Below are positions 8,002 through 51,553 of a stretch of 64,000 bases of DNA, one piece after another. A program made the position numbers and the translations under genes. Within the stretch, counting starts at the first letter, position 1; every line of letters begins with the position of its first letter. The notes below the pieces were generated by a model, which saw only the letters and a program-made list of their open reading frames with translations, made no database searches and was not told where the DNA came from. Source of the stretch: Loxodes magnus (Eukaryota; Ciliophora; Karyorelictea; Loxodida; Loxodidae); NCBI GenBank assembly GCA_946699065.1, contig CAMPDV010000225.1:404522-468521 (forward strand), in the 5' to 3' direction.

Positions 8002-8808
8002 ATGAAAAAGATAAATGTTTCTTATCTCATTTTAGATAACTAATAAAATCAAGTAGCTAGAGGACAAGGAGAAACGTTCTTGTCAGTTTATGATTTTAAC
8101 CAATTTGACTTTGCAGAATTAATAGAAAAAATTATAAGTAATCTAGAAAGAAAATTTACTAAGTAAGAGATATAAAATTTACTAGTTCCTTCAAGAATCT
8201 ATTTCAATAAGCAAGGAATATAAACTTATATTCTCACTTATAGAGGAACTGAAATAAAGCGATCATAACAATCTTTGATTGATTATATTCCATTTAATAA
8301 TCATATTGAAGTAACAATAGCTTTAATTAAATCTTTTAATCCAAATGAAAGCAAAAAGTCAACAACTAGAGCAAAAGAAAGACAATTAAAGGAGGTGGTC
8401 GAACTTGTATTATAATGGAGAAAATAATATAGTGGACTAAAAGATGTAGAAGGAAAATTGAAGCAAGTTAGTTTAGAAAAAGCAGCAAAAAATTTAGGAG
8501 TAGTAAGAAAAACGTTAGATGATTGGCTAAGTCAATTAAAATTAGGAATTTAAAATGGATTTAATTTTGAGAAGAACAAGAATAAATATATTACAGTGTT
8601 AAGAAGATTTAACAGAAATTATAAAGAGTCCATTTAGAATGCAAATGAAGAAGATCAAGAAGAACATTAGAAGAAAGATTATGATATGGAGAATTATATT
8701 TATAAATAAATACGACAATTTAGTTTTATTGCTATAGTTATATTAAAAACGACTAATCAAAGGGATTTAATATTCCAATCAAAAGAGCATTCTAAGCCTT
8801 TGTTTTAA
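8002..8808 (+). CDS. Helix-turn-helix-like protein, copy A
   Basis: From ATG 8002 (MKKINVSYLILDNQQNQVAR) an open frame runs for about 268 codons. Residues about 140-210 contain a helix-turn-helix-like motif: a sequence like VSLEKAAKNLGVVRKTLDDW, then an LKLGIQNGFNF segment and VLRRFNRNY. Similar 'KKSLDDY...QLRLG...FDF' domains recur in ciliate proteins (from memory of the family; function unknown), and DNA binding is inferred only from the motif. The N-terminal part has no recognised domain. The two Trp codons here are TGG (8416, 8524); both are TGA in copy B. The end is uncertain: no TGA closes the frame before 9100, and a small gene on the other strand starts its 3' end at 8816, so the in-frame TAA at 8806-8808 is used as a working end. 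This frame is intact; copy B is frameshifted. Confidence 0.72.
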
Positions 8809-8815
8809 AATTTCC

Positions 8816-12004: not shown

Positions 12005-12037
12005 TTGAAAGAAAAGTAAATTAATAATTTTCTAGCC

Positions 12038-15000
12038 TCAACTTTCTTTTTGCTAAGTTTCTTTAATCATATTTTATAAATCAGCTTTATAACTTCTCTC
12101 TTCTATTTCATAATGAACTAAATCCTAAGACAAATCTTCAGCCTGCACATGAATATTTACCTTTAATAAAGAATTATCTTAATTCCTCGAATTTTCATTT
12201 ATTTCTTTTTCATTTAACTATCTTGAAGATGTCATCATCAAAATATCAAATCTTTCCTAAGTTTGGTCATTAGTAACATTTTTAAAATCTTAGGAAGAGC
12301 TTTAATTTTATCCTTCGTATTACCTCGTACTAACTTATTTCTTTTATTCTTAATCCTCTGTTTGTTACAGTTACTGTTACTCTTTTTTCTATTTTCTCTT
12401 TTCTCTTATATCTTAAATTATTTCTTTTATCGTCACTATAAAGCAAATCAATATACCTATGAAAGTAATTGCACTAGTAGTAATTATTAATCCACACCCT
12501 GCTTAAAAAGTCTAATTAGAATTAATGTTTTCTAACTCCCTACTATTCTCATTTTATCCTATAGCATAGAAATAGAAATTAAAAGAATATAGAATTGAAA
12601 GTCAAAATTCTTAAAATATATGGACATAGTTAAGTAATTTTGATTTGAAGGGCTTGCATTTAAGAATGTAAACTAGCTAAGATAAACTAGTAGCCAGACA
12701 CAGAATTATCTAAGCTAAAGGGTAGCCTATCAACCCAATTAAAATAACTGATAGTAATATTCTTCTTATGAGAAAAATAGGGTAAAAGATTAAAGCTTTC
12801 CTTTCTAGTTTAAGTTCGTCGAATATAGGAAAGAATTTAGTAATATGTTGATCTATTATTTATTTTTAATCTTGATCATCTGGAGTTATTTTATTCTTTA
12901 TTTGGAAATATTTCTTAACTATTAAGAAAGATAAAACTATTCCAGTTAATTATAGAACCTAAAATAAATAACTTACTAGAATTAATACTGCAGTAAGAGT
13001 ATTTACGGAGTAGAATGCATTTTAGAAGTTTGGATTGGAAATTTGAAGCATTGCTGAAAGTCCTATTTTTAAGTAAAAGAGGAAGTTTAGAGTAATTAAG
13101 AGTCTATAATGGAAGTACTTTAATCTTACTCTATTTAGGACTTAAAAGGAAGTTAGCTTTGAAAGTAAGTTTATAAAAGCATCAGCAAACAAAACTGAAA
13201 TGATAAATATGTTATAAACAAGAGCATTAGAGGAATAAACGTAACTTTCATAACCCAAAACTCTTAGATTATAATTATTGATTTGCTGTTCTCCTGGATT
13301 GCTAATGATTTTTTATTATAGTCGATGAATGAAATTTTAGTTCTGCTCATAATAATAGGCTAGCAAAATATCTGGTTTTTCTACTTAAATATAAGCACTA
13401 GAGAAAAATAGCTCCGTTGCAATCATAAGAGTAAATCAGTTTGAAATTGAATTTTCTTGAGGTAAAAACAAAATTAGTGATGTAGCGGTAGTAACTCCAG
13501 TAAGAATAGTTGCCCTTTCGATTTGCTAGAGTTGATGAATAGTTTATTTTACATTTTCTGATAATTCAAAGGTATTTAAGTCTATATCATCAGATTCATC
13601 ATTTTTCTCATTTTCTTCCTCTTAGTTTGTTTCATTTTATTAGCTTGAGTTGTTTTAAGTTCCACTAAGATTATATGCACATAAATTACTTTCATTAAGC
13701 ATATATTGATCTATACAATTGTAACATATTGTTCCGTTTTCTGAGCATTCATTACAATTTTTGTCTATTTTTGAGCATGAAATACATTCTTAGTTCTTTG
13801 GAAAGAATCCTATTTCACATTCTAAGCACTACTTAATACTTTAATCACATTTGCTACAATTTTCAATCTCTTTACCACAAGACTCACATATCTTGTCTTA
13901 ATTGTAATCTTATTCAGTTTCATCACATTTTTCTTTGCATGTATTCTAAGAAAGCTTTGTTTTACACAGTAAACATTTAGTCTAATTTTAACATAATATA
14001 CAGTCTTTATGAATAGCATCACATGAAGAACAAGAATTTTGACTTGGAGTTTGATTAGCGAAACATTAATCACAAATAAGTTTTCTATTTTCTTCATGAC
14101 ATTTCTCACAATTTCCTATTATATAACTACAAGCTTAGCAAATATTATCTCCATCCATATCTTATTCATTATTAGGACATGAATAAACACATTTATCCTA
14201 GGATATTTTATAGTTGCAAGGTTAGCAAACATTTTAAGAATCGGAAAAATAACCTTTTAAACAACTATCTAAGCACTAATTGCCTTATAGTTTTTTAGGG
14301 TATAAACAACTAGAACAAAATTATCCATCTTAAGAACATTCACCACAAAATTCTATACTTAGAGAACATTTATCGCATTTTTTATCTTAGTTTACTCAAT
14401 AGCCTTTATCACATAAATTACAAATAGTTCCTAGCTAATCACATTAAATACAATTAGAAATTGATTATCTACAAGGCTGGCATATTCCATCTTTGTCTAA
14501 ATCTTACTCAGTTTCAGGGCATTGAATGTAACATTGTTTATCAATTTAACTTAATTTATAGGAATTTAAACAAGAAAGACACTGAGAAGAATCACAATCT
14601 TAGCAATTTTGAGTAAAATCTGAGCAAGGTAAACACTAATCTTGTTAGTTACTCAAGTAAAACCCTTTCGTACATAAAGTACAATATAATCCATCTTCTG
14701 TACAATATTAACAATTTTAAATTTTAGCATTACAACTTTCACATATTCTATCATTATTAAAGTCTTGCTCTGTTATAGGACATTTACTTAAGCATTAGTT
14801 GGAAGATAACTTTTATGGATAAGAACATTCTTAACAAATATTTTTATCTAAGCAACTTATACATAAAGGATCAATAATTGAGCATGAGGAACATTAAAAG
14901 TTGAAATCTATATAGAAGCCTTGTGGACATTTAGTACATTAAAGAATATTTTCTTAGCATTCTATACAATTTGAAATTTCTTAACTACAGTAGTTACATA

Positions 15001-16456
15001 TTCTATCAGAATTTATATCTTATTCAGTTTTTGGGCAATTTAATGAGCATTTATTTAATTTTTACTCTAGCTTGTAAGGCAAACTACACTCGTTGCAAAA
15101 ACTTCCTTCGTTTGAACATGCTTTACAATTTGAAGCTTAGCATGCGTAGCATTTTAAGTCGATTCCTATATAAAAACCATCAGCGCACTTTGTACATTTT
15201 AAACCATCTTAAGTACATTCTATGCAATTTAAGATAGCTAAATTGCAAGGCTCACATATTTTATCTATATTTAGATCTTAATGAGTTGGAGGACAAGAAT
15301 CTTAGCATAAGTTAAAATAAAGAAACTTTGTAGAACACTAAGTACAAGTAGCTTCATTTTAGCATGATTAGCAATCTTACATAACATTGCAAGGTAAACA
15401 AATTCCTCCTTGCAAATATTATCCACTACTACATTAAGAGCAAATAGTTCCGGCATTATTACATTTTAAGCAATTAGGTAATACTTCATTACAAAGTTTA
15501 CATTTATAATTATTATATTTATCTTATTATGTATTAGGGCAACTATCTTAGCAAGTTCCGTCTAAATTTAAATATTTAGTTGTTTAACATAAAGTACAAA
15601 TAGAAGTACTAGAACAAGTTTAGCAAAAAGGTATATAATTATTGCATAATTCACATTAAAAAGGGTTAGTTGTAATAGAAGTAAATCCTTGATTACATTG
15701 GCAAGTTTTAGATTAGTCGATATGTTAATTAGATCTACAAGTTAAACAATTTGTATCTAAGTATCCGTTACAAGTAAGACATCTATCATTACAAGGTTAG
15801 CATGGATTTACGAGTTGACTATCACAATAACCTATACAACTGAGAATACACGGACTTTGTAAAGAAAGATCTACGAATTCGTTTTGAGTAAATCATTTAT
15901 TGTCAGTTCAAAATCTTACATCTTACATATAACCGAAATAATAGTAACCAGATGAAGATCCTAAAATTATTTAGGCATACTAGGCAAAGAAAATATATCC
16001 TCCGTCATCAAAAGTTTAAGAATCGCAAAAATGATCATTTGGTGAATACATCCCTTTAGCATAACATCAATTAAAATGAGACTAATTCAGCTAAATCAAG
16101 AAAAAAATCCAAGAACTATCAATTATAAAACTCGAATTCTTTGCAACTTCGGGTTAAATTCCATAAATATAAGTAGTTTAAGAACTCAAGACAGAAAGAT
16201 AGCAAAATGAAACAAACTAAGTACCTTCTACGATTAAAAAAATTGGCTAAATGTTTTCAGATAAGGGTTGTTGTTTGAATCATCCAGTAGCAGCTCACGA
16301 AGTTTGAGAATTTGTGGAAGGATCATAGTTAAAATTATCAAATGTCGTTATATAAGAAAAAATATTTGAAAGTTAGATTGGATTTTCTTGACTTATGATT
16401 TGTAAAGTTTAAGAAAAAGTTTGGTGAATAACAATTACAAGTAGAAAGAAATACAT
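12038..16456 (-). CDS. Cysteine-rich multi-pass surface protein, copy 1
   Basis: ATG 16456 to TGA 12038-12040 is exactly 1473 codons (1472 residues), intronless. Order: hydrophobic signal peptide beginning MYFFL; a laminin-G/ConA-like domain to about residue 195 containing GYM.DVRFW; about 700 residues of CxxC-type repeats (furin/growth-factor-receptor-like, e.g. CKLCNEVLPNCLKC); an acidic linker; then six or more membrane spans (e.g. YPIFLIRRILLSVILIGLIG) and a Gln/Glu-rich cytoplasmic tail of about 150 residues. The family is common in ciliates as receptor-like or surface-antigen-like proteins; ligand and role are unknown. TGA is Trp at VRFW (15908-15910) and several membrane sites, but is absent from the last 170 or so codons. 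It is nearly identical to the 5' part of the gene at 24338 and homologous along its whole length to that at 36348. Confidence 0.93.
13785..16456 (-). repeat. Left arm of 2.7-kb inverted repeat
   Basis: The 5' part of cysteine-rich gene 1 matches, in reverse orientation, 24338-27018. Similarity starts at the ATG in both genes (the 5' flanks differ) and stops abruptly just after the shared phrase ccaaagaactaagaatgtat. The arms are separated by about 7.9 kb. Some blocks of nearly 190 bp appear identical. Confidence 0.75.
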
Positions 16457-22968: not shown

Positions 22969-23775
22969 ATGGAGCAGAACATTAGACTAAATAAAAATCA
23001 AATAAGAAATGCTCGGGAAAAGGCTGCTTAAGTACTTCGATAAAAAGAAAAACAATAAGAAGAATCAAGTTTCGACTCATAAGGTAAAATAATGATCGGA
23101 ACTTTGCAAGCTGAAGAATTTAAATCAGATATTTCGGAGGAACTACGACAAAAGATCGAACAAATGTAAAAAATTATATCCCGATACGAAGAAAAAATAT
23201 ATAATTAAGACTTATTAATACGGGAACTTACAACAAACATTGACGTGCAAAATAATGAAATGGAAATCCTTAAGAATCAGCTAATAGAAAACAAGGTAAT
23301 AACGGAAGAACAACTTTGAATGTAATCGCAATAAAAATCTTAACGTACATCAAAGATGGAAATTGAAAAAACTTTCACTCCATTATAAAGTGTTTAAGAA
23401 CAGAAAGAAATTAGATATGATAATAACTTAATTAAAAGACTAGAAAATATTGAAAATAAGCTATTTAAAAAACATATTAGTCAAAAGAAGATTAAAAAAT
23501 AATGTTGATATTGCCAATCCAATTACCACTTATTAAGAAGATGTTGAGAATGAAAGAAATTAAATGAAAAGGTATAATAAAGAACATGAAGAGCATTGAA
23601 TTTTCTATGAATAACTCCAACAGGAATATACAAATAAAAATTGTCTATGCGCTCTTTTGAAAGCAATCAGTGGTAACCATCCACATAAAAAAAATGGTCG
23701 CGGTATCCATCCGAGTCAAAAAAATGGAAGCAGGAACTGGTTGAAAGTCCAGAATATGCCAAAACATTTTTTTAA
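22969..23775 (+). CDS. Zinc-knuckle (Gag-like) protein
   Basis: From ATG 22969 the frame is intact for about 268 codons. The first 170 residues are charged and coiled-coil-like (NAREKAAQVLRQKEKQQEES and onward). Around residue 180 is a CCHC zinc knuckle, CWYCQSNYHLLRRC, with the exact C-x2-C-x4-H-x4-C spacing of Gag nucleocapsid and LINE ORF1 proteins. The tail has a repeated WxRYPSESKKW-like motif. Trp is both TGG and TGA; TGA supplies the W inside the knuckle. By family knowledge it is probably the nucleic-acid-binding protein of a retroelement or a domesticated relative. No reverse transcriptase follows. The 3' end is uncertain (in-frame TAA 23773-23775 used), and the frame may extend upstream. 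It lies alone between the inverted cysteine-rich genes. Confidence 0.68.
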
Positions 23776-24337: not shown

Positions 24338-27018
24338 ATGTATTTCTTTCTACTTGCAATTGTTATTCACCAAACTTTTTCTTAAACTTTACAAATCATA
24401 AGTCAAGAAAATCCAATCTAGCTTTCAAATATTTTGTCTTATTCAACAACATTTTATGATTTTAACTATGATCCTTCCACAAGTTCTTAAACTTCGTGAG
24501 CTGCTACTGGATGATTCAAACAACAACCCTTATCTGAAAATATTTAACCAATTTTTCTAATAATATAAGATTCTTAGTTTGTTTCATTTTGCTATAGTTC
24601 TGTCTTGAGTTCTTAAACTACTTATATTTATGGAATTTAACCCGAAGTTGCAAAGAGTTCGAACTTTATAATTGATAGTTCTTGGATTTTTTTCTTGATT
24701 TAGCAAAATCAATCTCATTTTAATTGATGTTATGCTAAAGGGATGTACTCACCAAATGATCATTTTTGCGATTCTTAAACTTTTGATGACGGAGGATATA
24801 TTTTCTTTGCCTAGAATGCCTAAATAGATTTAGGATCTTCATAAGGTTACTTTTATTTCGGTTATATGTAAGATGTAAGATTTTGAACTGACAATAAATG
24901 ATTTACTGAAATTGAATTTGTAGATCTTTCTTTACAAAGTCCATGTATTCTCAATTGTATAGGTTATTGCGATAGTCAACTCGTAAATCCATGCTAACCT
25001 TGTAATGATAGATGTCTTACTTGTAACGGATACTTAGATACAAATTGTTTAACTTGTAGACTTAATTAATATATCGACTAATCTAAAACTTGCCAATGTA
25101 ATCAAGGATTTACTTCTATTACAACTAACCCTTTTTAATGTGAATGATGCAATAATTATATGCCTTTTTGCTAAACTTGTTCTAGTATTTCTTTTTGTAC
25201 TTCATGTCAATTACCTAAATATTTAAATTTAGATGGAAATTGTTAAGATAATTGCCCTAATACATAATAAGATAAAGATAATAATTATAAATGTAAACTT
25301 TGTAATGAAGTATTACCTAATTGCTTAAAATGTAACCTTGCCGGAACTATTTGCTCTTAATGTAGTAGTGGATAATATTTGCAAGGAGGAATTTGTTTAC
25401 CTTGCAATGTTATGTAAGATTGCTAATCATGCTAAAATGAAGCTACTTGTACTTAGTGTTCTACAAAGTTTCTTTATTTTAACTTATGCTAAGATTCTTG
25501 TCCTCCAACTCATTAAGATCTAAATATAGATAAAATATGTGAGCCTTGCAATTTAGCTATCTTAAATTGCATAGAATGTACTTAAGATGGTTTAAAATGT
25601 ACAAAGTGCGCTGATGGTTTTTATATAGGAATCGACTTTAAATGCTACACATGCTAAGTTTCAAATTGTAAAACATGTTCAAATGAAGGAAGCTTTTGCA
25701 ACGAGTGTGGTGCACCTTACAAACTAGAAAAAGCAATAAATAAATGCTCATTAAACTGTTCAAAAACTGAATAAGATATAAATTCTGATAGAATATGTAA
25801 CTACTGTAGTTAAGAAATTTCAAATTGTATAGAATGCTAAGAAAATATTCTTTAATGTACTAAATGTCTACAAGGATATTATGTAGATTTCAACTTTTAA
25901 TGTTCCTCTTGTTAGACTATTAATTCCTTTTGTATAAGTTGCTTAGATAAAAATATTTGTTAAGAATGTTCTTATCCATAAAAATTATCTTCCAACTAAT
26001 GCTTAAGTAAATGTCCTATAACAGAGCAAGACTTTAATAATGATAGAATATGTGAAAGTTGTAATGCTAAAATTTAAAATTGTTAATAATGTACAGAAGA
26101 TGGATTATATTGTACTTTATGTACGAAAGGGTTTTACTTGAGTAACTAACAAGATTAGTGTTTACCTTGCTCAGATTTTACTCAAAATTGCTAAGATTGT
26201 GATTCTTCTCAGTGTCTTTCGTGCCTAAATTCCTATAAATTAAGTTAAATAGATAAGCAATGCTACGTTCAATGCCCTGAAACTGAGTAAGATTACGATA
26301 ACGATGGAATATGCCAACCTTGCAGATAATCAATTTCTAATTGTATTTAATGTGATTAGCTAGGAACTATTTGTAATTTATGTGATAAAAGTTTTTGAGT
26401 AAATTAAGATAAAAAATGTGATAAATGTTCTCTAAGTATAGAGTTTTGCGGTGAATGTTCTTAAGATGGATAATTTTGTTCTAGTTGCTTATACCCTAAA
26501 AAACTATAAGGTAATTAGTGCTTAGATAGTTGTTTAAAAGGTTATTCTTCCGATTCTTAAAATGTTTGCTAACCTTGCAACTATAAAATATCCTAGGATA
26601 AATGTGTAGATTCATGCCCTAATAATGAATAAGATATGGATGGAGATAATATTTGCCAAGCCTGTAGTTTTATAATAGGAAATTGTGAGAAATGTCATGA
26701 AGAAAATAGAAAACTTATTTGTGATTAATGTTTCGCTAATAAAACTCCAAGTCAAAATTCTTGTTCTTCATGCGATGCTATTCATAAAGATTGTATCTTA
26801 TGTTAAAATTAGACATAATGTCTGCTGTGTAAAACAAAGCTTTCTTAGAATACATGCAAAGAAAAATGTGATGAGACTGAATAAGATTACAACTAAGACA
26901 AGGTATGTGAATCTTGTAGTAAAGAGATTGAAAATTGTAGCAAATGTGATTAAAGTATTAAGTAGTGCTTAGAATGTGAAATAGGATTCTTTCCAAAGAA
27001 CTAAGAATGTATTCCATG
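24338..27018 (+). repeat. Right arm of 2.7-kb inverted repeat
   Basis: Mirror of 13785-16456: the shared portion of cysteine-rich genes 1 and 2, beginning at the start codon and ending inside the CxxC region. In some stretches (e.g. about 26395-26460) this arm is closer to copy 3, which suggests gene conversion among the three genes. Confidence 0.75.
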
Positions 27019-29026
27019 TTCTCAGAATCATGTTGATTGTATTAAATGTTCCAATAAAGATATTTGCTTAGCTTGTTCAAATAGCAAATAAATATTTAAT
27101 AATAGTTGTATAGAAATTTGCTCTACAACTGAGCATTTCAACGAAATAATAGGAATTTGCTCTCCTTGCTAACTGGTAATAAATAATTGTTAAGAATGCT
27201 CAGAAGATGCAACTAAATGCCTAGTCTGTCAAAATGGATTCAACTTAACTTAAAATTTTACTTGTGAACAGTACAAAAATTAAACTAATGAAGAGGAACA
27301 GGAAATAAGTTAAGAGCTTTCTGAAAGTGAGAAAAAATACATTAAACAGACATAATATGCAAATAAAATGTTTTCAAATGCTATAATTGCTTCATCAATC
27401 GTAATAGCTCTATTTCAATAAGGAAGTACAGCAGGTTTTACTATTTTCTGAATAATAGTTTTTCTCGATGAGTTATTATGTTTAAATGGGTTGCTTAACC
27501 TGAAATTTCCAAGTAACTTAGCTTATTTCTATTAATTAAAATAAGTAGGAATTCTTAGTTTCAATTTTGGAATACAAAATTAATTTCTAACAAATAGCAA
27601 ACAAAATGAAATAGCCAACGAAAATTTAAACATTTATAATTATAAGGAAGATATTCTACTTTCTAATATTTATAGAGCTTCGTTTGAACTATTTATTTAG
27701 GTTTTAATATTTTTAGCCTGCTTCATTATTTCTTGAGTTTGAACTGCTAATAAATACTTTAAGAATGTAGTTTCTCATTTTAAATATTGTTCATTTATAA
27801 GGTTTTGCCTAGTTAATACTATTTAACTATGAATAGCTATTCTACTTCAGATGTAGAATTTACAATGAAATGATTGATATGCTTGCTTTAACTCTATTTT
27901 AGCTTTTGGCCTACTGGTAAGTATTTTTATTTAGATTGTATAGATTCTATTTTTAGCTTTTACAATCTACTAGATTTATTAAATGAATAGAGTAAGAATA
28001 AATAGAAATTAAGAAAGTGAAAGCTAACTAATGGTAAAATATGGAAGTTTATTTGAAGAGTTTAGAAATGAAGCAAATTTACCAGTTTCTAGTTTTTATG
28101 CTTTATTTATATTACGAAGATTTATAATAAGCTTAGTCATAGTATTTGCTTAGTAGCAGCAAGAACTTTAAATAGTTACTATGATAGTTTTAAGTATAGG
28201 CTAAATATCTTATTTAGTTTATTTCAATCCTTACAAATCTAAGATTGGCTTGATGTTAAATGTTTTTAACGAACTAACTTTCTCTGTGATTTACCTTTTG
28301 AATTTTTGTTTCGTAGCCTTCGACGAAAAGCATAGAATACTACTAACCTAAGATATGTTTAATGATACAGGTAAGTGCATTATATTCCTATCAAGTTTCT
28401 TATCTTTTTTAAATATTTCAGTTTGCTTTATAATGCTTCTTGGTTTATTATATCTAAAATACAAAGATCATAGAAATAAAAACTAGTAGTAGTAAAGAAT
28501 TTCTCCTTTAAATGAGAAAGATTTAGAATAAAATAATGATTAAGCTAAAATAAGAGAAACTAATTTATAAATGAACAACCAAACATTTTTATCTGAAAGA
28601 TAGGAAAATAATTTATAGCTTTACTTATCCAACTATTATAAAGAGCAACCTGAATAAAGTTAAAACTAAATAGAACTAATCAATAAGAAAGGGTTTTCAC
28701 TTAAATAAAATAGTCCTCAACTCCTATAGAAAATAGATTAAAGAGTACCTTAACATAAGAACTATTCGGAGTTTAAAAAAAATATAGTGGAGCATCTATT
28801 AAAAGAAGCAGAAAAGTTAAAAGTAGATATATCAAGTCTAGATAAGGATTTTAATAATTTAGAAATTTTTGATTATGAAAAAGACTAAATCGTATCTATT
28901 GAAAAAAGGTTTAAAGAAAAAGTTCTAGAATCTCTACAAAAAATTGGCAGTAAACAAGAGAATGAAAATAAAATAAAATAGTTGATGATCTGCTTTGATG
29001 ATATATGTTTAAAGGAGGGAATCTGA
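24338..29026 (+). CDS. Cysteine-rich multi-pass surface protein, copy 2
   Basis: ATG 24338 to TGA 29024-29026 is exactly 1563 codons (1562 residues), no intron. Signal peptide MYFFLLAIVIHQTFS; laminin-G/ConA-like domain to about residue 190, containing GYMQDVRFW with W as TGA (24884-24886); CxxC repeats to about residue 975 (e.g. CNDRCLTCNGYLDTNCLTC); membrane spans from about 1010 to 1375 (e.g. SFELFIQVLIFLACFIISW); then a 185-residue Gln/Lys-rich cytoplasmic tail. Many Trp codons in the membrane region are TGA, including two in SWVWTANK. Up to about 27018 the gene is almost the same as copy 1; beyond that the repeats and membrane half differ, so it is a mosaic. Convergent with the gene ending at 29091. 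Probably a surface receptor or antigen; ligand unknown. Confidence 0.93.
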
Positions 29027-29090
29027 TATCAAAGACATAAACTTATCTTAAATAATTGATATAAAATTATTTTTATTTAGCAAAGCAAAT

Positions 29091-30260
29091 TCATTTAATT
29101 CTTTAAATATAGATTCCATGCTTTAGATTTATATAGGTCATGGATTATTAGGGATAAGCTATGTAATTTATATTAGAATGTTTATTTTAAAATAATTAAA
29201 AATGATTAAACATAGTTATTTACCTTTAAGCATAAATAATTGAATATTTTAGTTAAGTCTTAAAAATAAAAGGATTTATCTTTATATTTTGATTATTATT
29301 AAAAGATACTAAATACTTAGAAATATTAAGGAGTCTTTTACAGCTATATCAATTTTAAATTAATTGATTAAGTTAAACAGTTTCCTTCGCAAATTTTTTT
29401 AAAGGAAAAATTTAACTTGGATTGTTCTCTTTATATAGCATTAAAAAATTTTGACTAAAAAGGACAACTCAATGACTAATCTAAAAGAAATAGAGTAGTT
29501 ATATCATTATTATCTTATAAATTTATTTATTCATTTACTCTTGCAATTTTGCTGTAGTCATGCTTTTCTTAATAAACATCCTTCTTTTGAGCAAAAATTA
29601 TTAAATTATTTAATTAGTTTTAGCTTTTGGCTTTTACCAGGAGAATTATGATGTTCTGTAATTTTATTTAAGTAGCCAATTTATTTTTATTATCTAGTTT
29701 TTTTATTTTTAGTCTTTCGTAATTCTTTTGCTTGATATTGATTTGATAACTTTTATTAATTTCTTCTATCGGATCCAGCTTACTTAAAGTTCGTTCTTAA
29801 ATTTTTCATTAATCTGCTTTTTATTCGAAAACAAAAGTTTTCTTCTTCCAAGTTATATCCTTTCAAATGCTTAAATTCTTTGATTCTTATTTAGATTTTA
29901 TTATTTTAATGAAAATAGATGCAGACTCAAGATTAAAATTCTATCAGCATTAAATTTAATAAATTATGTACAAACAAGTATCAATTAATCAGATTTAGAT
30001 CTGTCTACAATTTTGTGGTCAATTTTTAATTGGAATTTGCTCTTCCAATCTTATAAATTTTTACTTCCTTTGAGAAATTTGAAAGAGTTTATGTCTTATT
30101 TTTAGGAAGACCATTTCTACATTATCACTAAATTTAACCTTATTTTTATCTGCAGTTTTCATTTCGCTATTTTGTTGAAATAATTTGAATTATTTGTTCC
30201 AATTAATTAAATTTCTTAGTTACTACAGCACTAATAAATATCTTCCTTCTATTAATTCAT
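29091..30260 (-). CDS. Hypothetical protein
   Basis: ATG 30260 (MNQQKEDIYQCCSNQEIQLI) to TGA 29091-29093 is 390 codons. This frame is clearly richer in charged residues and Trp than the other two, for example INEKFKNELQVSWIRQKKL and QKWSSQKQDINSFKFLKG. It is basic, with no membrane span and no family I recognise. Trp uses TGG and TGA. It converges on cysteine-rich gene 2 with 64 bp between the two stops. It lies just upstream of, and divergent from, the second helix-turn-helix copy, the same relative place as the gene at 6572-7567, but the two proteins do not look alike. A competing frame on the same strand (30162-29029) was weighed and is poorer. Confidence 0.48.
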
Positions 30261-31208
30261 TTTTATGATTCTTTTACTTTAAAATTAAATTTTAATGTAT
30301 TATTTAATTATTTTTTCTCTCATTTACTAACAATTTTTATAGAAATAAAAATTGTTTTTCTTTAGGATTTTCTACATTAAGTAATAAGAGTAAAATCATT
30401 TTAGATTTTAAATAGATATTAAATTTATTTTTTTCATAAGTATCTTGAATTTTTTCTTCACATTTTTAAATTATTTTTACGTAATTTGATTTAAACTATT
30501 TTCTATTTTTATTAATTCCCTTAAGTTTCTTATTTTAAATTATGATTTTATTTATTGTGCTTTATGATTTATCTTATGTATACAAGTTTCAAATGAAATT
30601 AATTTTCTTTTATTACTTAAACCTTAAAAAACTATTTTTTTCTACCTTTACTAAAATTGTTTTGCTATTAAAACTTTAACTAAATAAATTTCTTTAAAAA
30701 TATTAGCTTAGTAATAGCATAATTTTCAAATATAGATTATCATTTAAAGCTATTTTAGAGGTATTCCTTAAAAATAATAATATTAGTAAAAAGATTTAGA
30801 AAATACTAATAAGGATATTATATAATAATAATCCTATTGCATTGCTTATAAAATTCATCTATCTTTGACATTTTAGGTATTTCTTATTTATGAAGAAATG
30901 CAATTACACTCTAAGCTTCATAAGAATGAAGATTTCTGATATTTTAAAATGCATCACCATACATTTATAATTATAATTATATTTACTTATTTACCTAACT
31001 GTATATTTCTAATAAAATGCTTTTTTGACTTATAAGATATTTATGAATCTCTTTAATTAGAAATTGATTATTTAACAGTATGCTTAATATTTTTAACTAA
31101 TAGGCTAAGAGAGAAATACTTTCATGCTAATTAGATTTAATTATCCTTGCATTCCATTTTTTATTTAATAAACTTATTATTTAAGCAATAAATCTCTTCT
31201 CTAGTATA
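30261..31208. other. Intergenic region with left edge of duplication copy B
   Basis: AT-rich. From about 30895 onward it matches 7690-8001 closely; before that it does not. No gene recognised. Confidence 0.5.
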
Positions 31209-31963
31209 ATGAAAAAGATAAATGTTTCTTATCTCATTTTAGATAACTAATAAAATCAAGTAGCTAGAGGACAAGGAGAAACGTTCTTGTCAATTTATGA
31301 GTTTAACCAATTTGACTTTGCAGAATTAATAGAAAAAATTATAAGTAATCTAGAAAGAAAATTTACTAAGTAAGAGATATAAAATTTACTAGTTCCTTCA
31401 AGAATCTATTTCAAAAAGCAAGGAATATAAACTTATATTCTCACTTATAGAGGAACTGAAATAAAGCGATCATAATAATCTTTGATTATATTCCATTTAA
31501 TAATAATATTGAAGTAACAATAGCTTTAATTAAATCTTTTAATCCAAATGAAAGCAAAAAGTCAACAACTAGAGCAAGAGAAAGACAAATAAAGGAGGTG
31601 ATCGAACTAGTATTATAATGAAGAAAATAATATAGTGGACTAAAAGATGTAGAAGGAAAATTGAAGCAAGTTAGTTTAGAAAAAGCAGCAAAAAATTTAG
31701 GAGTAGTAAGAAAAACATTAGATGATTGATAGAGCTAATTAAAGATAGGAATTTAAAATGGATTTAATTTTGAGAAGAACAAGAATAATTATATAACAGT
31801 GTTAAGAAAATTTAACAGAAATTATAAAGAAATTATGTAGAATACAAATGAAGAAAATCAAGAAGAAGAATATCAGAAGAAAGATTATGATATGGAGAAA
31901 TATATTTATAAATAAATACGACAATTTAATTTTATTGTTATAGTTATATTAAAAAAAGACTGA
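31209..31963 (+). pseudogene. Helix-turn-helix-like protein, copy B (frameshifted)
   Basis: Starts like copy A (ATG 31209, MKKINVSYLILDNQQ). A 4-base deletion of one gatt unit near 31484 (aatctttgattatattcc, where copy A has ttgattgattatattcc) breaks the frame after about 92 codons. The downstream sequence stays coding-like in the shifted phase, with the full helix-turn-helix motif, down to TGA 31961-31963. Both Trp codons that are TGG in copy A are TGA here (31619-31621, 31727-31729), and a CAA is TAA. The otherwise conservative changes suggest recent loss, or an assembly error at the gatt repeat. Confidence 0.68.
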
Positions 31964-32022
31964 TTATAGCTATTAAATAATTCAATAAAAAGAACATTCT
32001 AAGCCTTTGTTTTAAAATTTCC

Positions 32023-32261
32023 TCAATTTTTTTTATTTATTATATTAAAGCTTTTAAAATTTTAATTTTTTTCCACTTTCTAACTATCTCCAACTGAATA
32101 ATCTCCTACTGAATTATCTTAGTAGTATACAAAGAGTATCTATAGAGTAAATATTAAATCTTCTTTTTCTAAGCTAATGCTTTTAAATTATTTAAATTTT
32201 AACCTTTTAAATCTTACTATAAAGTGGTTAAAACCTCAATTTCTTTGTTCTTGTGCTTCAT
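32023..32261 (-). pseudogene. Small hypothetical protein, copy B (frameshifted)
   Basis: Same start (MKHKNKEIEVL) and same terminal TGA (32023-32025) as 8816-9055, but 239 bp instead of 240. One A is missing from a short run about 75 bp into the gene. After the gap the DNSVGDYSVGD phrase is intact in the shifted phase. A sequencing error in the run cannot be excluded. Confidence 0.42.
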
Positions 32262-35200
32262 ATTTTCTTAGTAAGTTAGAGAGTAAATAAAAGAATAAAG
32301 TAAATTGTAAAGAATGATTAGAAATAAAATATCTTATATAGATTATTATAAATGCATCCATATATTTTAGTTAATTAAAAAGCTATAATAACTATTTAAA
32401 TTTAAGTATAAATAGCTATAAGTTTATTAGCTTTTAGATTAATGTTTATTATACATATATCTCTAAAGAAATAATATTTAGATTCATACTATGTAATTTA
32501 AAGGTTAACTTAATATTTTAAATTTAATGCTTAATAGTTAATAAGTAGGTTATATTCATCTAAATTATTCTTACAAATTAGATAGCTTTTATTACATCTT
32601 CTTATATATCTTTTAGTTATTTCTATATTAATGCTAAGTTTTATCATTACAATTATATCTGAAAATAGATAAATCATACATTTAAGCAAGAGAAATTAAT
32701 ATTAGTTAGTTAATTATTGATGATAGATTATTTGATTTATAAAGGTTGAAATTAAAATTAATAATCTAAAGATATAAAGAATAGTTAGATTTATATTTTA
32801 TTACATCTTAAACTATTAAAAAAATCTTTAATCTTAATTATTAAAATAGAACTTGCTTAAATATTTTCTATCAAGTATCTCCTCTAACTAAAATAAGTAC
32901 TTTCATTAATTATTTCTATCTATATGTTTTTAATTTATTTTCTTTTAAATAAATATTAGATTTGTATATTTTGCTAAAATAAAAGAAACCTATTTTTAGA
33001 TTTAATTATGATTATAATATTTTTTATTAAATATTTCTAATGTTTTATTTATTTTTCATAACTAATTTGTCCTAATTTCTTTAAAAATTTAATTATGACT
33101 TAATAAAGTAAAATGCTATGATAATTAAGGAATTTGATTTGTAGATTAACTTCTATTTTTCTAGTTCAATTTTCTTTTGAAGATATTTACAGTTTATACT
33201 TCTTAGATATTTTATCTACCTTTAGCCAGATTTTATTTTTTTAAGTTGTTGGTAATTAAATAAAATAGACCTGACTTATTAATTTTTTGCTTAGCTTAAT
33301 GATAATAAAAGTTAATTATAATTTTGTTTAGATACTGTTAAATTGTTTATAAATGGTTACTAGTGTGTTTAAGACTTAAATAATGTTTTCTAGTGATGGT
33401 AGTTAGTGAAGTATTGTAATAATAGTTGAATAATATAATTATCTTTAAATAGATTTAATAATTTAGTGGAAACCATAAGGTATTGATTCTTGTTAGTTTG
33501 AATTAAATGTTGAAATGTTAATAATGATGTATTTGAAAAAGAGATATTAAAGCATTTTATTATCTTAATATTTATTTTCTTAATAAAAAGTATGATATAC
33601 TTTTATAGGAATCTTTTATAATGTTGATAATAAAGCTTAAGTAAATAGCTAGAGCTTTATAATAAATACCATCATTTATTTTAATACTCCTTATAAATAT
33701 ATTTGCTATATTTAGCTAAAAATTAAATCTAACTTATTATATATCTCTTAACTAAAAAAGGAAAACATACAACCTAGAAAATCCTTATAATAGACAAATA
33801 AATACTTCTAATACCTTTATTAATATATTAGCTCCTATTATTCAATTATCATTCTATCACTTTAAATCATTATTTCTTTGCTTATCTTATTTTATATTAC
33901 ATTTACCTAATCTTATTTTGTTTCCTTTTGTTATACTGTTCCTGTGCTTTCTTTTATTTTTGATTATTTTGGTCTCTCAATTTATTAAATTTTTAATTTA
34001 AAAATCACTTATAGTATTATATGTGTATCAGTTACTCTAATTTGAGTGTCTCGTTTACTTAGTGTAAGTTTACTAAATCTTAAATTACTAGATACAGAAT
34101 TTATGTTGATAATTTAATTTTTATATTTCTATAGTTAATATCTCTTATTAGCTCATTTATTTAAATTTTGTTCTTCACTAATTTTCGTATTTTATATCTA
34201 AAACTTCTAATTTTCTCTATTTATCAAACTTAATATACAGCTATCTTATTATGTCTCCTCATTATTTTTAGACATAGTAGCACATAAATATTTAGATTTA
34301 ATGTCTTAGATTTCTTTCTTAATCTCCTATTGATTTACATTATTTAAAGGAAATAATATTTAGAAATAAGAAAGTTTAATGCTAGATAAGAATAAATTTA
34401 GAGAAAAGCTAATAAATCATTAAGTTAGATTAATTTATTCTAAATGATATCTCAAATTAAGTATTTTTTATTAAGTAGTTTAAGCTTATTAAGTGTATAA
34501 ATCTTTTATAATAAAAGTACTTATAGATTTAAATACTAATTTACTTATTTATCAACTAGAAAAATGATTATACTTATATATAACAATAACTAGTAGAATT
34601 ACATTCATCAATTTATCAGCTATTATATTTTAAGCTATTATTCTAGACTCTCTTATCTTTTACTAGTCATTGTTAGTAAATATCTTAAATTATACTTATT
34701 TAAGTTTTAATTAATACTAGCTTAAATATAATTAATAGGATTACTTATATATCTAATTTATAAATAGGCTAATATTTTAATACCTATCAAATAAAACTTA
34801 TCTTTAGCTTAAATTATAGAAGTATCTGATTTAGATAATCAACTATTCACTGTTAAGTATTTTCTAATTAGATTTCTATACTTAAATACAGTTAAAATTA
34901 TTAGATTTAGAGATCTAAATTTACCCTATTTATTTTATAGAATCTATTTAATAAAGCAATCATGCATTACTAATAAGATTATTATTTAAATTTTTAAAAT
35001 TTAGCAAGAGTATGATAGTTGCTCTAGTAAAACTAAACTTTGTTTATTATAAGATTAAAGTAGGCAAATATATATAAAGTTAAGGATTTATATACCAATA
35101 TTTTGAAGAATGTATTATATAAATATAAAAGCTACTAATTTATAAAACTAAGTCTATTTATTTTCAAGTCATATATTTTAGATTGCTACCTAAAATAACC

Positions 35201-35605
35201 TTTTAATACTTAACAAATAAATACCTTTATTTAATAATTTTAACATCGATATTAGATTTTAGGAGCTATTAAGGCAATTAAAATAAATAGCTTTATCTTC
35301 AAAAGCTTTAGGAAGGAGTAAAATAGTAAAGTACGATAATTTGATTACTTCATTAACTAATTTCATAATATATTTAAGTATTTTGCTTTATGACTAAGAA
35401 ATTAAAGCTTTAAATTAAATTTTATACATTTGGTAGAGTATCAAGCTAGAAGGATAGATAGAAATAATCAATAATAAAGAATATAAATAGATTCCCTCTT
35501 TTATAATGTACTTCATACAATTAAAAACAATTATCTGATCTTTTTAATTCTAAGCAATTATTTTTAAAAAAATTGAAAAATGATGATAAATATAATAATT
35601 TTAAC
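32262..35605 (+). other. AT-rich region homologous to 9056-11339, with an insertion
   Basis: Shares ATG 32352 (MHPYILVNQKAI) and many patches with copy A but with frame-changing indels. Between about 33010 and 34345 lies sequence that copy A lacks. No gene can be supported. Confidence 0.35.
33010..34345. other. 1.3-kb insertion relative to duplication copy A
   Basis: Copy A passes directly from aaataaaagaagcctac (9845) to aagtttaatgctagataag (9890). In copy B the same two anchors (32981 and 34370) are about 1.3 kb further apart. The insert is AT-rich, T-rich towards its right end, and has no recognisable ORF, inverted termini or target duplication by eye. It could be a germline-type eliminated sequence, a decayed transposon, or DNA deleted from copy A. 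Confidence 0.6.
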
Positions 35606-36318
35606 ATGCCAATAATAAATATCTCGCTTTCTTCTATCAATATAGCTAATGAGCTTGCAAAATTAGTTGATTAAAATTATTTTCTAGAAAAATAAAATAA
35701 TAATCTAGTGCAAAATTAAGTAAAATAGTCAAATTGGCAAAAATCAGAAAGGATATAATTATTTTAGGATAAAGAAAAAAGTTTTAAAGAGTAAATACTA
35801 AAATGAGAATAGAATTAGCTGAAAAAGTTTAAATAATTTAAGCTCTAAAAAAATAGATTGCTTGCCTAAAGTTTATAAATCTTTGATTCTAAAATCTTTA
35901 AAAAAATAAGGGATTCTTTAAAAAAATGAATTGTAGGCTGGTAAGTGAAGATTTAATCTTGCGAAAATAGAAAATTATGCAAAGTAAAACTGAAAATATC
36001 TCAAAATGAAAAAGATAGAAAAATTTGGAGTAAGAAAAGAACTATCAAATAATTTTCAGCACAGAAAACGAATTTCTAAAGAATAAAATAAAAGAGAGGC
36101 TATTTCTAATTTATTGAAAATTAGAAAAGAAGAAAGCGTCAAATATTTTGGGATTTTTGGCTTATAGAATAATTAAATCAAAAACTGAGTGAGAAAGTAT
36201 TAGAAAGTTAATAATAGCTTTTAGCTAAAAAATTCCAAACAAACTCTATTTATTTCAAAATGGTTTACCTATTAATTATTAAATCATTAATTTAGTAGTT
36301 ATTAAAATATATAATTGA
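35606..36318 (+). pseudogene. Coiled-coil protein remnant, copy B (one apparent frameshift)
   Basis: ATG 35606 (MPIINISLSSINIANELAKL) opens a coiled-coil frame: QKSERIQLFQDKEKSFKEQ, then ILKWEQN with TGA as Trp. Near 35930, after a run of A, the coding-like phase shifts by one and continues as LVSEDLIL, STENEFLKNKIKER and YRIIKSKTEWESIRK to TGA 36316-36318. It aligns with the copy A remnant at 11340-12004. About 230 residues if the shift is an error. Family unknown. It ends 29 bp from the convergent cysteine-rich gene 3. Confidence 0.45.
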
Positions 36319-36347
36319 AAGAAAAGTAAATTAAAAATTTTCTAGCC

Positions 36348-39300
36348 TCAACTTTCCTTTGATTTATTTTTTTTATTCATATTTTATAAATCAGCTTTAT
36401 AACTTTTCTCTTCTATTTCGTAATGTTCTGAACCTTAAGATAGATCTTCAATCTGTATTTTAATATTAACCTTTAATAAAGAATTATCTTAATGCTTTTG
36501 TATTTCATTTATTTCTTTTTGATTTAACTATCTTGAAGTAGTCATCATCAAATTATCAGGATTTTCCTGCGTTTGGTCATTAGTAACATTTTTAAAATCC
36601 TAAAATGAACTTAAATTTTATCCTTCGTATTACTTCGTAATAACTTATTTGTTTTAGTCTTAATCCTCTGCTTATTGCTGTTACTGTTTTTTCTATTTTC
36701 TCTTTTCCTTTATCTCTTAAATTATTTCTTTTATCAATGCTATAAAGCAAAGTAATATACCTATTAATGTAATAACACTGGAAGTTATAATTAATCCACA
36801 TCCTAGTTTATAAGTCTAATTAGAATTAATGCTTTCTAACTCTCTACTATTCTCATTTTATCCTATAGCATAGAAATATAAATTCAAAGAATATATAATT
36901 GAAAGTCAAATCTCTTAGAATATATGGACACAGTTAAGTAATTTTGATTTGAAGGGTTTGCATTTAAGAATGTAAACTAGCTAAGATAAACTAGTAGCCA
37001 GACATAGAATTATCTAAACTAAAGGGTAGCCTATCAACCCAATTAAAATAACTGATAGTAATATTCTTCTTATGAGAAAAATAGGGTAAAAGATTAAAGC
37101 TTTCTTTTCTAGTTTAAGTTCGTCGAATATAGGAAAGAATTTAGTAATATGTTGATCTATTATTTATTTTTAATCTTGATCATCTGGAGTTATTTTATTC
37201 TTTATTTGGAAATATTTCTTAACTATTAAGAAAGACAAAACTATTCCAATTAGTTACATAATCTAAAATAAATAACTTACTAGAATTAATACTGCAGTAA
37301 GCGTATTTATGGAGTAGAGTGCATTTTAGAAGTTTGGATTGGAAAGTTGAAGAATTACAGAAAGTCCTATTTTTAAGTTAAAGAGGAAGTATAGAGTAAT
37401 TAAGAGTCTAAAATGGAAGTACTTTAATCTTATTCTATTTAGAGCTTAAAAGGAAGTTAGCTTTGAAAGTAAGTTTATAAAGGCATCAGCAAACAAAACT
37501 GAAATGATAAATATGTTATAAACAAGAGCATTTGAGGAATAAGTGTAACTTTCATAACCCAAAACTCTTAAATTATAATTGCTAATCTGTTGTTCTCCTT
37601 AATTGCAAATAATTTTTTATTTTAATTAATGAATGAAATTTTAGTTCTGCTCATAATAATAGGCTAGCAAAATATCTGGTTTTTCTACTTAAATATAAGC
37701 ACTAGAGAAAAATAACTCCGTTGCAATCATAAGAGTAAATCAGTTTGAAATTGAACCTCCTTGAGGTAAAAATAAAATTAGTGATGTAGCGGTAGTAACT
37801 CCAGTAAGAGTAGTTGTGCTTTCAATAAATTAAAAATAATGAATCATATCTTTTACATTTTCTGATATTTCAAAGGTATCTGAGCTAATATCATCAGATC
37901 CATATTTTTTCTTATTTTCTTCTTCTTAGTTTGTTTCATTTTATTAGCTTGAGTTGTTTTAAGTTCCACTAAGATTATATGCACATAAATTACTTTCATT
38001 AAGCATATATTGATCTATACAATTGTAACATATTGTTCCGTTTTCTGAGCATTCATTACAATTGTTGTCTATTTTTGAACATGAAATACATTCTTAGTTC
38101 TATGGAAAGAATCCTATTTAACATTCTAAGCACTACTTAATACTTTAATCACATTTGCTACAATTTTCAATCTCTTTACTACAAGATTCACATACCATGT
38201 CTTAATTGTAATCTTATTCAGTTTCATCACATTTTTCTTTGCATGTATTCTAAGAAAGCTTTGTTTTACACAGCAGACATTATGTCTAATTTTAACATGA
38301 TATACAGTCTTTATGAATAGCATCACATGAAAAGCAAACATTTTGGCTTAGAGTTTTATTAGCGAAACATTAATCACAAATAAGTTTTCTATTTTCTTCA
38401 TGACATTTCTCACAATTTTCTATTATAAAACTACAGGCTTGGCAAATATTATCTCCATCCATATCTTATTCATTATTAGGACATGAATCAACACATTCAT
38501 TTTAGGATATTTTATAGTTGCAAGGTTAGCAAACATTTTAAGAATCGGAAGAATAACTTTTTAAGCAACTATCTAAGCACTAATTGCCTTATAGTTTTTT
38601 AGAGTATAAGCAACTAGAACAAAATTATCCATCTTAAGAACATTCACCGCAAAACTCAATACTTAGAGAATATTTATCACATTTTTTATCTTAATTTACT
38701 CAAAAACCTTTATCACATAAATTACAAATAGTTCCTAGTTAATCACATTAAATACAATTAGAAATTGATTATCTACAAGGCTGGCATATTCCATCTTTAT
38801 CTAAATCTTACTCAGTTTCAGGGCATTGAACGTAGCATTGCTTATCTATTTAACTTAATTTATAGGAATTTAGGCACGAAAGACACTGAGAAGAATCACA
38901 ATCTTAGCAATTTTGAGTAAAATCTGAGCAAGGTAAACACTAATCTTGCTAGTTACTCAAATAAAACTCTTTCGTACATAAAGTACAATATAATCCATCT
39001 TCTGTACATTATTAACAATTTTAAATTTTAGCATTACAACTTTCACATATTCTATCATTATTAAAGTCTTGCTCTGTTATAGGACATTTATTTAAGCATT
39101 AGTTGGAAGATAATTTATATGGATAAGAACATTCTTGGCAGGTATTTTTATCTAAGCAACTTATACAAAAAGGATCAATAAATTAGCATGAGGAACATTA
39201 AAAGTTTAAATCTACATAGAAGCCTTGTAGACATTTAGTACATTAAAGAATATTTTCTTAGCATTCTAAACAATTGGAAATTTCTTAACTACAGTAGTTA

Positions 39301-40757
39301 CATACTCCATCAGAATTTATATCTTATTCAGTTTTTGAACAGTTTAATGAGCATTAATTTATTACCTTTTCTAGCTTGTAAGGGAAATTACACTCGCTGC
39401 AAAAGTTTCCTTCGTTTGAACATGTTTTACAATTTGAAACTTAGCATGCGTAGCATTTAAAGTCGATTCCTATATAAAAACCATCAGTGCACTTTGGACA
39501 TTTTAGACCATCTTAAGAACATTCAATACAATTTTAGATAGCTACATTACAAGGCTCACATATTTTATCTCCATTTAGATCTTAATGAGTTGGAGGACAA
39601 GAATCTTAGCATAAGTTAGAATAAAGAAACTTATTAGAACACTAAGTACAAGTAGCTCCATCTTAGCATGCTTAGCAATCTTACATAATATTGCAAGGTA
39701 AACAAACTCCTTCTTACAAATAATATCCACCACTACATTTAGTGCAAATAGTTCCAGTTAGATTACATTCCAAGCAATTAGGTAATACTTCATTACAAAG
39801 TTTACATTTATAATTATTATATTTATCTTATTATGTATTAGGGCAATTATCTTAACAAGTTCCATCTAAATTTAAATATTTAGTTGTTTAACATGAAGTA
39901 CAAATAGAAGTACTAGAACAAGTTTAGCAAAAAGGTATATAATTATTACATAATTCGCATTAAAAAGGGTTAGTTGTAATAGAAGTAAATCCTTGATTAC
40001 ATTAGCAAGTTTTAGATTAGTCGATATATTAATTAGATCTACATGTTAAACAATTTGTGTCTAAGTATCCGTTACAAGTAAGACATCTATCATTACAAGA
40101 TTAACATATACTCTCAAGCTAAATATCACAATAACCTATACAATTGAGAATGCATGGACTTAATTGAGAAAGATCTACGAATTCATTTTCAGTAAATCAT
40201 TTATTATCAGTCCAAAATCTTACGTCTTACATATAGCCTAAAAAAATTTGACCAAATGAAGTTCCTAAAATTATTTCAGTATCTTGTATAAAGAGAGTAT
40301 AATTTGAATCAAAAGTTTAAGAATCGCAAAAATGATTATTTGGTGAATACATCCCTTTAGCATAACATCAATTAAAATGAGATTGATTTTGCTAAATCAA
40401 AAAAAAAATTCAAGTACTATCAATTATAAAGTTCGAACTCTTTGCAACTTCGGGTTAAATTCCATAAATATAAGTAGTTTAAGAACTCAAGACAGAACTA
40501 TAGCAAAATTAAACATAATTAGGACTTTCAAAAATTAAAACAATTGGTTAAAAGTTTGCTGTTAAAGATTATTGTTTGAATCATCCAGTAACAACCCACG
40601 ATGTATTTGAACTTGAGGAAGGATCATAATTAAGATTTCCAAATGTCGTTGTATAAGACTAATTATTTGAAAGATAGATTGGAATTTCTTGGTTTATGAT
40701 TTGTAAAGTTTAAGAAAAAGTTTGCTGAAAAAGGATTGCAATTAAAAAGGAATACAT
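36348..40757 (-). CDS. Cysteine-rich multi-pass surface protein, copy 3
   Basis: ATG 40757 to TGA 36348-36350 is exactly 1470 codons (1469 residues), intronless. Same plan as copy 1: hydrophobic leader, laminin-G-like domain with VRFW, long CxxC repeat block, acidic linker, several membrane spans and a Gln-rich tail. It is homologous to copy 1 along its whole length, including the membrane half, and more divergent from copies 1 and 2 in the laminin-G-like domain. Its VRFW Trp is TGG (40212-40214) where copies 1 and 2 have TGA. One repeat cysteine seen in the others (DKC) is tyrosine here. The stop context (GAAAGT then TGA) is the same as in copy 1. Role as for copy 1. Confidence 0.93.
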
Positions 40758-49771: not shown

Positions 49772-51553
49772 TCAACTAATTCTATTTCCATTCTCCCAAT
49801 TCTATTCTTCTATTTTTCCATTTTAATACGTAAATGTACCTTTTCCTGATTTTTTGCCTTCTTCGTATCGTCCTTCGTATTTTTCTCCATTTTTAAACTT
49901 ATAAATTCCAAAACCATGTAGTTTATCTTTTAAAAACTGTCCTTCATATTAATTTCCGCAGGCTAAATAAAATATTCCTTTACCTTATTTTAATCCGTCT
50001 ACACTTTAACCTTCGTATTTATCTCCATTCTTATATTATCAAATACCATATCCATGCGGTTTATCTTTTAAATATTCTCCTTCGTAAATATCTCCATCTA
50101 TATAATAAAATTTTCCATTTCCTTGTTTGATTCCATCTATAAAATTACCTTCATATTTATTTCCACTCTTATATTTTTTTATTCCAAAACCATGAGGCTT
50201 ATCTTTTAGCCATTCACCTTCATATATTTCTCCATCTGTATAATAAAAAATTCCTTTTCCTTATTTTTATCCTTTCACATAACTTCCTTCATATTTTTAG
50301 CCATCTTCATAAATAAAAATTCCTTAGTCATGCATTTTATCTTTCTAAAATTCTCCTTCATATATATCTCCGTTTTAAAAATTTAATATTCCTTTTCCTT
50401 ATTTAAAACCTTTAGCAAAATTTCCTACGTATCTGTCTCCATTATTGAATTTATAAGTTCCATATCCATGCATTTTGTCTTTCTAAAATTCTCCTTCATA
50501 AATATCTCCACTTGCAAAATAAATGATTCCCTTACCTTGCTTTTACCCATCTATATATTATCCTTAATATCTAGTTCCATCTTTGCTTTTATAAATGCCA
50601 TTTCCATGCTTCTAATCGTTATTTCACTCTCCTTCATATACATTTCCATTAGTTTAATAATAAATACCTTTTCCTTATTTCAATCCATTTACAAAATTAC
50701 CTTCGTATTTATTCCCATTCTTATATTTATAAGTTCCATATCCATATGGGTTTCCATTTTTAGTTTATCCATTATATTTATCTCCATTTTATAATTTTAA
50801 AATTTCAATTTTTGTTTTTGAGTTATTTTCCTTTTTTTCCTCAAATGTAGAACATTATTTTATATTTTTAAATTCTTATATTTTTTCTTGCTCTTAAATT
50901 ATATAATTTTTCTATTTCTATTTCTATTTTTCTTACTCTTATTTTTTTTAGTTTACCAATTATTTTTTTACGATCAATCATTTTTCTTCTAGTTGTATAA
51001 TTTCATTTTCTTTTTATATTAATATAACTTCCATTTCTTGTTAATTATTATTCAATTCTTGTTCTTATAAAATATAGTTTCCACCTGATTACTCAAATTT
51101 CATCTTGACTAATATATTTTTGCTTAACTTTATTGTTTTTAGTTTTTTTAATAGCTCATTTAAGAAAAGATTACTATTTTTCAGGATATTTTGACTTATA
51201 AAAAGTGTAAAATCTTAATACAATTCATTTTATTTCTTTGCTATATCTTATACAACCTATTTTAGTATTATTTCTTACTATTTCAATTTTTCTATTATTT
51301 CGTTTATTCTTTTTATTTCGTTTTCATTTTGTTAGGATTTCTCTCCGGTAATATTACAAACTTAAAGATATTTAGGATTTACATTAAATTTTTGGTTGCA
51401 AAGAGTACATTAATAATAGTTAAACCTTTAAAATTGATCTGAAATGCAAACAGCACAAATAAAATGTGAATAGTAGCAAGGAAGTATGATTGGAATTCTT
51501 TAATTAGAATTAAAGGAATTCAAACATTAATTACACTTCTAAATATTATCCAT
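49772..51553 (-). CDS. RING finger / MORN-repeat protein, copy 2
   Basis: ATG 51553 (MDNIQKCNQC) to TGA 49772-49774 is exactly 594 codons (593 residues), no intron. RING ligands C7, C10, C26, H30, C33, C36, C49 and C52 have the same spacing as in copy 1. A coiled-coil section of about 180 residues follows, then about fourteen 23-residue MORN repeats (YKNG..YEG.. pattern). MORN Trp codons are a mix of TGA and TGG; the last, seven codons before the stop, is TGG. The final repeat ends EEQNWENGNRIS, close to the EEQAWQNGKRIL of copy 1. It has about five more MORN repeats than copy 1, probably by internal repeat expansion. Likely a ubiquitin ligase tethered by MORN repeats; the target is unknown. 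Confidence 0.9.

Follow-up and report, generated by a model that had tools for sequence, protein, structure and literature searches.

The 64,000-nucleotide stretch of Loxodes magnus contig CAMPDV010000225.1 analyzed here (the window; position 1 is its first letter, and G+C is 21% by base counts) uses all three standard stop codons as sense codons. With a probability of about 97%, it is macronuclear DNA translated by NCBI table 27, in which UAA and UAG encode Gln and UGA encodes Trp internally and stops translation at gene ends. The assignments TAA/TAG = Gln and TGA = Trp are supported by window genes and by unrelated genes elsewhere in the genome, searched as an assembly of 705,730,643 bases in 7,843 contigs. 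The finding is already known: this is the published karyorelict code, and we add no new code to it. A 706 Mbp, tandem-repeat-rich macronuclear assembly of L. magnus is described in PMC11441545, which assigns the species to table 27, UGA being its sole stop and encoding Trp as well. A prediction made earlier on this DNA (the original prediction) held that all three stops are sense codons, which is true but incomplete, as TGA is also a stop, for example in both copies of eRF1. Its proposal of a karyorelict-type host fits L. magnus, which is a karyorelict by taxonomy, and leaves its alternative of an undescribed lineage unneeded. It had placed this combination of meanings in karyorelictids and Condylostoma, where it does occur, but Plagiopyla frontata is also reported to have it (PMC10553269, PMC11687900).

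With the ordinary stops, the window contains no stop-free run of at least 200 codons, and likewise no run of 200 codons if TAA and TAG are the sole stops. Taking TGA as the sole stop gives 134 runs of at least 200 codons, a count that takes in overlapping frames as well as runs within the right-hand tandem array. If TAA, TAG and TGA are allowed as sense codons internally, five frames starting at ATG stay open up to a terminal TGA, at lengths of 448 to 1562 codons:

2624..3970, minus strand: RING-MORN gene 1; coding sequence 2627-3970, 448 aa, 5 sense TGA and 1 TGG, stop TGA at 2624-2626.
49772..51553, minus strand: RING-MORN gene 2, its paralogue; coding sequence 49775-51553, 593 aa, 3 sense TGA and 2 TGG, stop TGA at 49772-49774.
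12038..16456, minus strand: cysteine-rich copy 1; coding sequence 12041-16456, 1472 aa, 8 sense TGA and 1 TGG, stop TGA, end set by eye.
36348..40757, minus strand: cysteine-rich copy 2; coding sequence 36351-40757, 1469 aa, 7 sense TGA and 2 TGG, stop TGA, end set by eye.
24338..29026, plus strand: cysteine-rich copy 3, inverted; coding sequence 24338-29023, 1562 aa, 13 in-frame TGA and 1 TGG, stop TGA, end set by eye.

Together they hold 36 in-frame TGA and 7 TGG codons, and each also terminates at TGA. In-frame TGA accounts for 0.65% of codons (36/5544), versus 0.88% and 3.88% in the other two frames. Each of the 11 codons cited in the original prediction reads as it had claimed, on the strand it gave or implied.

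The meaning of internal TGA can be read in RING-MORN gene 1, where two of these codons, read as TCA on the plus strand, occupy Trp positions of the MORN repeat:

2786..2788, minus strand: sense TGA for the Trp of MORN YEGE-W.
2717..2719, minus strand: sense TGA for the Trp of MORN YEGQ-W, 31 codons upstream of the stop.

When each of the 20 residues was substituted for TGA in this gene and the product scored against the Pfam MORN family, Trp gave the best score (131.9 bits), with Phe at 128.1, Tyr at 119.9, Cys at 101.0 and Gly lowest at 88.6; with TGA left as X, the genes scored 101.6 bits (gene 1) and 214.1 bits (gene 2). The scan bears on the idea that TGA is a sense codon for some residue other than Trp, be it Cys as in Euplotes, where that reassignment is known (PMC10553269), or a mixture produced by read-through. 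Phe comes close to Trp, but Trp tops the scan, there is no TGA/Cys exchange in the cysteine-rich copies, and the TGAs of dynein genes, described below, lie on Trp columns. We reject Cys or another meaning on the 20-residue scan and regard it as exceedingly improbable.

The cysteine-rich copies allow TGA to be compared among paralogues. The original prediction called the encoded protein laminin-G; its VRFW codons are as it described, but the laminin-G identity was not confirmed, and copies 1 and 3 have no Pfam match. One Trp of this motif, at alignment column 183, is written in both ways:

15908..15910, minus strand: sense TGA in VRF-W of copy 1 (TCA on the plus strand).
24884..24886, plus strand: sense TGA in VRF-W of copy 3.
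40212..40214, minus strand: TGG in VRF-W of copy 2 (CCA on the plus strand).

As the C-terminal part of copy 3 has diverged, the alignment was cut at column 1040, where the divergence begins. Columns 1-1040 contain eight TGA columns: four have TGA in all three copies and three show TGG/TGA exchange. Three of the four variable columns are thus TGG/TGA exchanges (a simple model of one-step mutation gives P of 0.0003 to 0.0016), the count that the original prediction had proposed making, and no exchange with TGA is found among 376 Cys codons. The codons remain under constraint: overall dN/dS values for the copy comparisons are 0.38, 0.39 and 0.45, and the part that follows a TGA at codon 687, common to the three copies, gives 0.36-0.49, with the first 53 codons under weaker constraint (0.65 to 0.85). 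For TAA and TAG, the CAA at 26657 and the TAA at 14135 (TTA on the plus strand) read as predicted, and 12 of the 97 columns with TAR also hold CAR, but 26 also hold non-Gln codons. Since more TAR columns share non-Gln codons than CAR, the cysteine-rich gene alone is weaker evidence for TAR = Gln.

Unrelated genes carry the argument beyond the window. Our genome search returned 33 matches to dynein heavy chain motors (15 with TGA), of which 20 loci (11 with TGA) were aligned with TGA read as X. The sampled motors contain 16 TGAs, and 15 fall in three conserved Trp columns that are otherwise TGG (40 cells) or Phe (5 cells). The enrichment has P ~1.5e-23, a value to be read with the columns having been chosen from the same alignment. 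The sample is enriched for TGA-bearing matches and is therefore silent on how often Trp is written TGA; nevertheless, TGA placement is not random with respect to conserved Trp, as the original prediction required of its own reading.

These results also decide against a reading in which the organism uses a Tetrahymena-type code (table 6, with TGA the only stop) and the TGA-bearing genes of the window are decaying pseudogenes, TGG to TGA being a common first mutation. That change is a single transition, G+C is just 21%, and one gene pair in the window has the appearance that such decay would give:

8002..8748, plus strand: helix-turn-helix-like frame, copy 1; TGG at 8416 and 8524; 3' limit arbitrary.
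31188..31960, plus strand: helix-turn-helix-like copy 2; TGA at 31619 and 31727; limits approximate.

The original prediction had these four codons right and offered them as an exchange between paralogues. Relative to the 8 kb copy, however, the 31 kb copy has a 4-base gap upstream of both TGAs that breaks the frame, so that the pair is weak evidence, and going by its sequence copy 2 may be decaying. (The helix-turn-helix label comes from the original prediction; Pfam gives a sub-threshold DUF1548 match alone.) Elsewhere decay fits poorly, as the five frames are open from ATG to terminal TGA, selection persists in the cysteine-rich copies downstream of their common TGA, Cys codons are never exchanged with TGA even though TGT and TGC are one step away, and the dynein TGAs concentrate on conserved Trp columns. 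We reject the pseudogene reading on the dN/dS and dynein tests and give it almost no credence.

The release factor eRF1 bears on both the code and its mechanism. The two copies (L010 and L011) have 436 residues each and end at a TGA close to where the solved homologue has its C-terminus. In both, the catalytic Gln of the GGQ motif is TAA. Against chain 4d5n, 8 of the 18 aligned TAR codons of L010 fall on Gln, with Ser next at 3, and 2 of its 8 CAR codons are opposite Gln. The changes in eRF1 that the original prediction had suggested looking for are present: relative to the reference, Glu55 is Ala, Thr58 is Arg, Ser60 is Gln (written TAA), Ser70 is Ala (in both copies) and Tyr125 is Phe. The best match to eRF1_1 in the genome, L009, was set aside as not eRF1 but pelota/Dom34-like, judged by eye. 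We also observe that 36 of the 43 Trp codons in the five window frames are TGA, whereas neither eRF1 copy uses TGA for any of its 4 Trp codons; genes that are conserved or strongly expressed may avoid it.

The gene ends bear on the choice between table 27 and the Condylostoma code (table 28), under which UAA and UAG would also be stops. The sense meanings of the two are identical and few gene ends were looked at, but all seven of these (two in eRF1, five in the window, the latter picked by eye) are TGA: both eRF1 copies terminate there and the five window frames can do so. L. magnus is moreover reported with UGA as its only stop (PMC11441545). We consider the Condylostoma code highly unlikely here. 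For the RING-MORN genes, the choice of end is supported because the DNA similarity of the pair stops beside both TGAs (2637, 49785). Across the five frames, a sample of few genes, the internal TGA nearest any end is 31 codons upstream; coding UGAs and UAAs are reported to be depleted over the last 20 or so codons before the stop (PMC11441545).

Published work suggests how one codon could serve both purposes in table 27. A tRNA-Trp(CCA) with a shortened anticodon stem would read UGA as a near-cognate codon, an altered eRF1 would compete poorly at internal UGA, and closeness to the mRNA 3' end would let the last UGA terminate, as PMC4967479 argues for the marking of stops in Condylostoma and Parduczia. 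Suppressor tRNA-Gln genes, which are assumed here and were not recovered, would decode UAA and UAG. According to PMC12153298, the stop-recognition features of eRF1 are GTS, Glu55, TASNIKS, Ser70 and YxCxxxF, and Ser70Gly is linked to UGA read-through in Blastocrithidia. A 4-bp-stem tRNA-Trp(CCA) has been found in Loxodes according to PMC13092985, which credits it to Swart and others (eLife 2024). With these two reports, the outline of the mechanism is already published. Codons with a double meaning, amino acid and stop, bear on how genetic codes change, and the tRNA-Trp arrays and eRF1 changes described here are details for a known open question, that of telling one UGA from another.

A pattern search of the genome for tRNA-Trp(CCA) gave 129 matches against 0 in the reversed control, and among the matches listed all but three lie on two contigs, C67 and C148 (loci L015-L041, L090 and L091), where they form arrays:

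C67:482324 to at least 491173: tRNA-Trp(CCA) array, ~187-bp unit, 27-43 mismatch A-C.
C148:155465 to at least 168668: tRNA-Trp(CCA) array, ~241-bp unit, 27-43 mismatch U-C.

ARAGORN, run on four of the C67 loci, called tandem tRNA-Trp(CCA) at all four. The A-C mismatch is present in 377 of 377 gene sightings over 27 overlapping C67 loci, a tally with genes entered more than once, and all 7 genes read on C148 have U-C. Position 27 is therefore unpaired with 43 in both forms, leaving a 4-bp anticodon stem in each; by eye, the comparison tRNA-Lys and tRNA-Ala have five stem pairs. It is tempting to see in tRNA-Trp dosage and shape, that is, in two homogenized arrays that each fixed their own 27-43 mismatch, added support for UGA = Trp, which, if true, would link the amplification of tRNA genes to the capture of a stop codon, but we think it unlikely. 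An adaptation to UGA is not required to explain the arrays, because tRNA-Lys(UUU) is also strongly amplified: ARAGORN called it at 25 of the 25 loci run, several with an adjoining tRNA-Ala(UGC). Some of the tRNA-Lys(UUU) genes, for example among L060-L088, are in regular tandem units. Among the papers listed in library searches on tRNA genes of Loxodes and on tandem tRNA arrays of ciliates, no title or abstract opening reported tRNA-Trp arrays in Loxodes, and the main text of PMC11441545 does not mention tRNA.

The tRNA-Trp(UCA) gene raised in the original prediction was not found: one exact pattern run over the genome gave 8 matches versus 4 in the reversed control, and ARAGORN called no tRNA at the 8 loci. 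Seven of these matches share a similar tRNA-like sequence and one is a simple repeat. One dispersed sequence (L044, L047-L049) resembles a tRNA and has a T-loop-like end but is not called by ARAGORN; it is perhaps a tRNA-derived repeat.

Several observations weigh against the assignment of table 27 and should be set beside the evidence above. The ends of all five window frames were picked by eye. Within columns 1-1040 of the cysteine-rich alignment, one TGA column has Leu (TTA) in both remaining copies, and beyond column 1040 there are 8 further TGA columns, all opposite non-Trp codons across the diverged copy 3. TAR is paired with non-Gln codons 51 times in these copies and with CAR 23 times, so that the CAR/TAR exchanges that the original prediction proposed to count exist but are outnumbered. 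One of the 16 dynein TGAs lies off the Trp columns. Among the tRNAs, the lone tRNA-Trp pattern matches on C12, C19 and C26 were none of them called a tRNA by ARAGORN. One exact pattern for tRNA-Gln(UUA) gave 10 matches versus 11 in the reversed control, with no tRNA-Gln called at the 10 loci, and one for tRNA-Gln(CUA) gave 4 matches, of which the 2 checked were a tRNA-Arg(TCT) and an uncalled sequence. The failure to recover suppressors is a limit of the search: the tRNA family search initially had 42,786 candidates and scored 63 of them.

The remainder of the window is marked by duplication and repeats. A segmental duplication of about 10 kb joins 7673-17465 and 30879-41817 (71-88% identity in pieces), and the cysteine-rich gene recurs a third time, in part and inverted, at 24335-27021 (92-95% identity). 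A tandem array of a 103-bp unit (~85 copies, 97% match, GC skew ~+0.65) occupies 55271-64000 and reaches the window end, which fits the repeat-rich L. magnus genome described in PMC11441545. ARAGORN found no tRNA genes in the window, and no Rfam family reached its gathering score there. A further reading frame is zinc-knuckle-like:

22969..23775, plus strand: candidate zinc-knuckle-like reading frame; 6 TGA and 3 TGG; 3' limit arbitrary.

By eye, this frame and that at 53550-53918 contain a CCHC zinc-knuckle-like motif, and they possibly encode mobile-element proteins; neither has a Pfam match.

Compared with table 27 as reported for L. magnus, we see no difference: UAA and UAG are Gln, UGA is Trp internally and also the stop, and where depletion of sense UGA before the stop is reported there, the five window frames, a small sample, have no sense UGA near the stop. 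Condylostoma magnum (table 28) is described as similar in having three sense stops and a short-stem tRNA-Trp(CCA), with tRNA-Trp(UCA) not found there, nor here with one exact pattern, but differs in that all three codons are also stops, whereas here TGA alone was seen at gene ends. Plagiopyla frontata likewise reportedly has UAA/UAG = Gln and a rare UGA = Trp that is also a stop, but belongs to another ciliate lineage, which is taken to have gained UGA = Trp independently (PMC10553269). The mechanism of Blastocrithidia nonstop, a short-stem tRNA-Trp with an altered eRF1, is the same in kind as that proposed for table 27 here, but there UAR is Glu and UAA is the stop, and residue Ser70 of eRF1 is replaced by Gly, whereas in Loxodes it is replaced by Ala.

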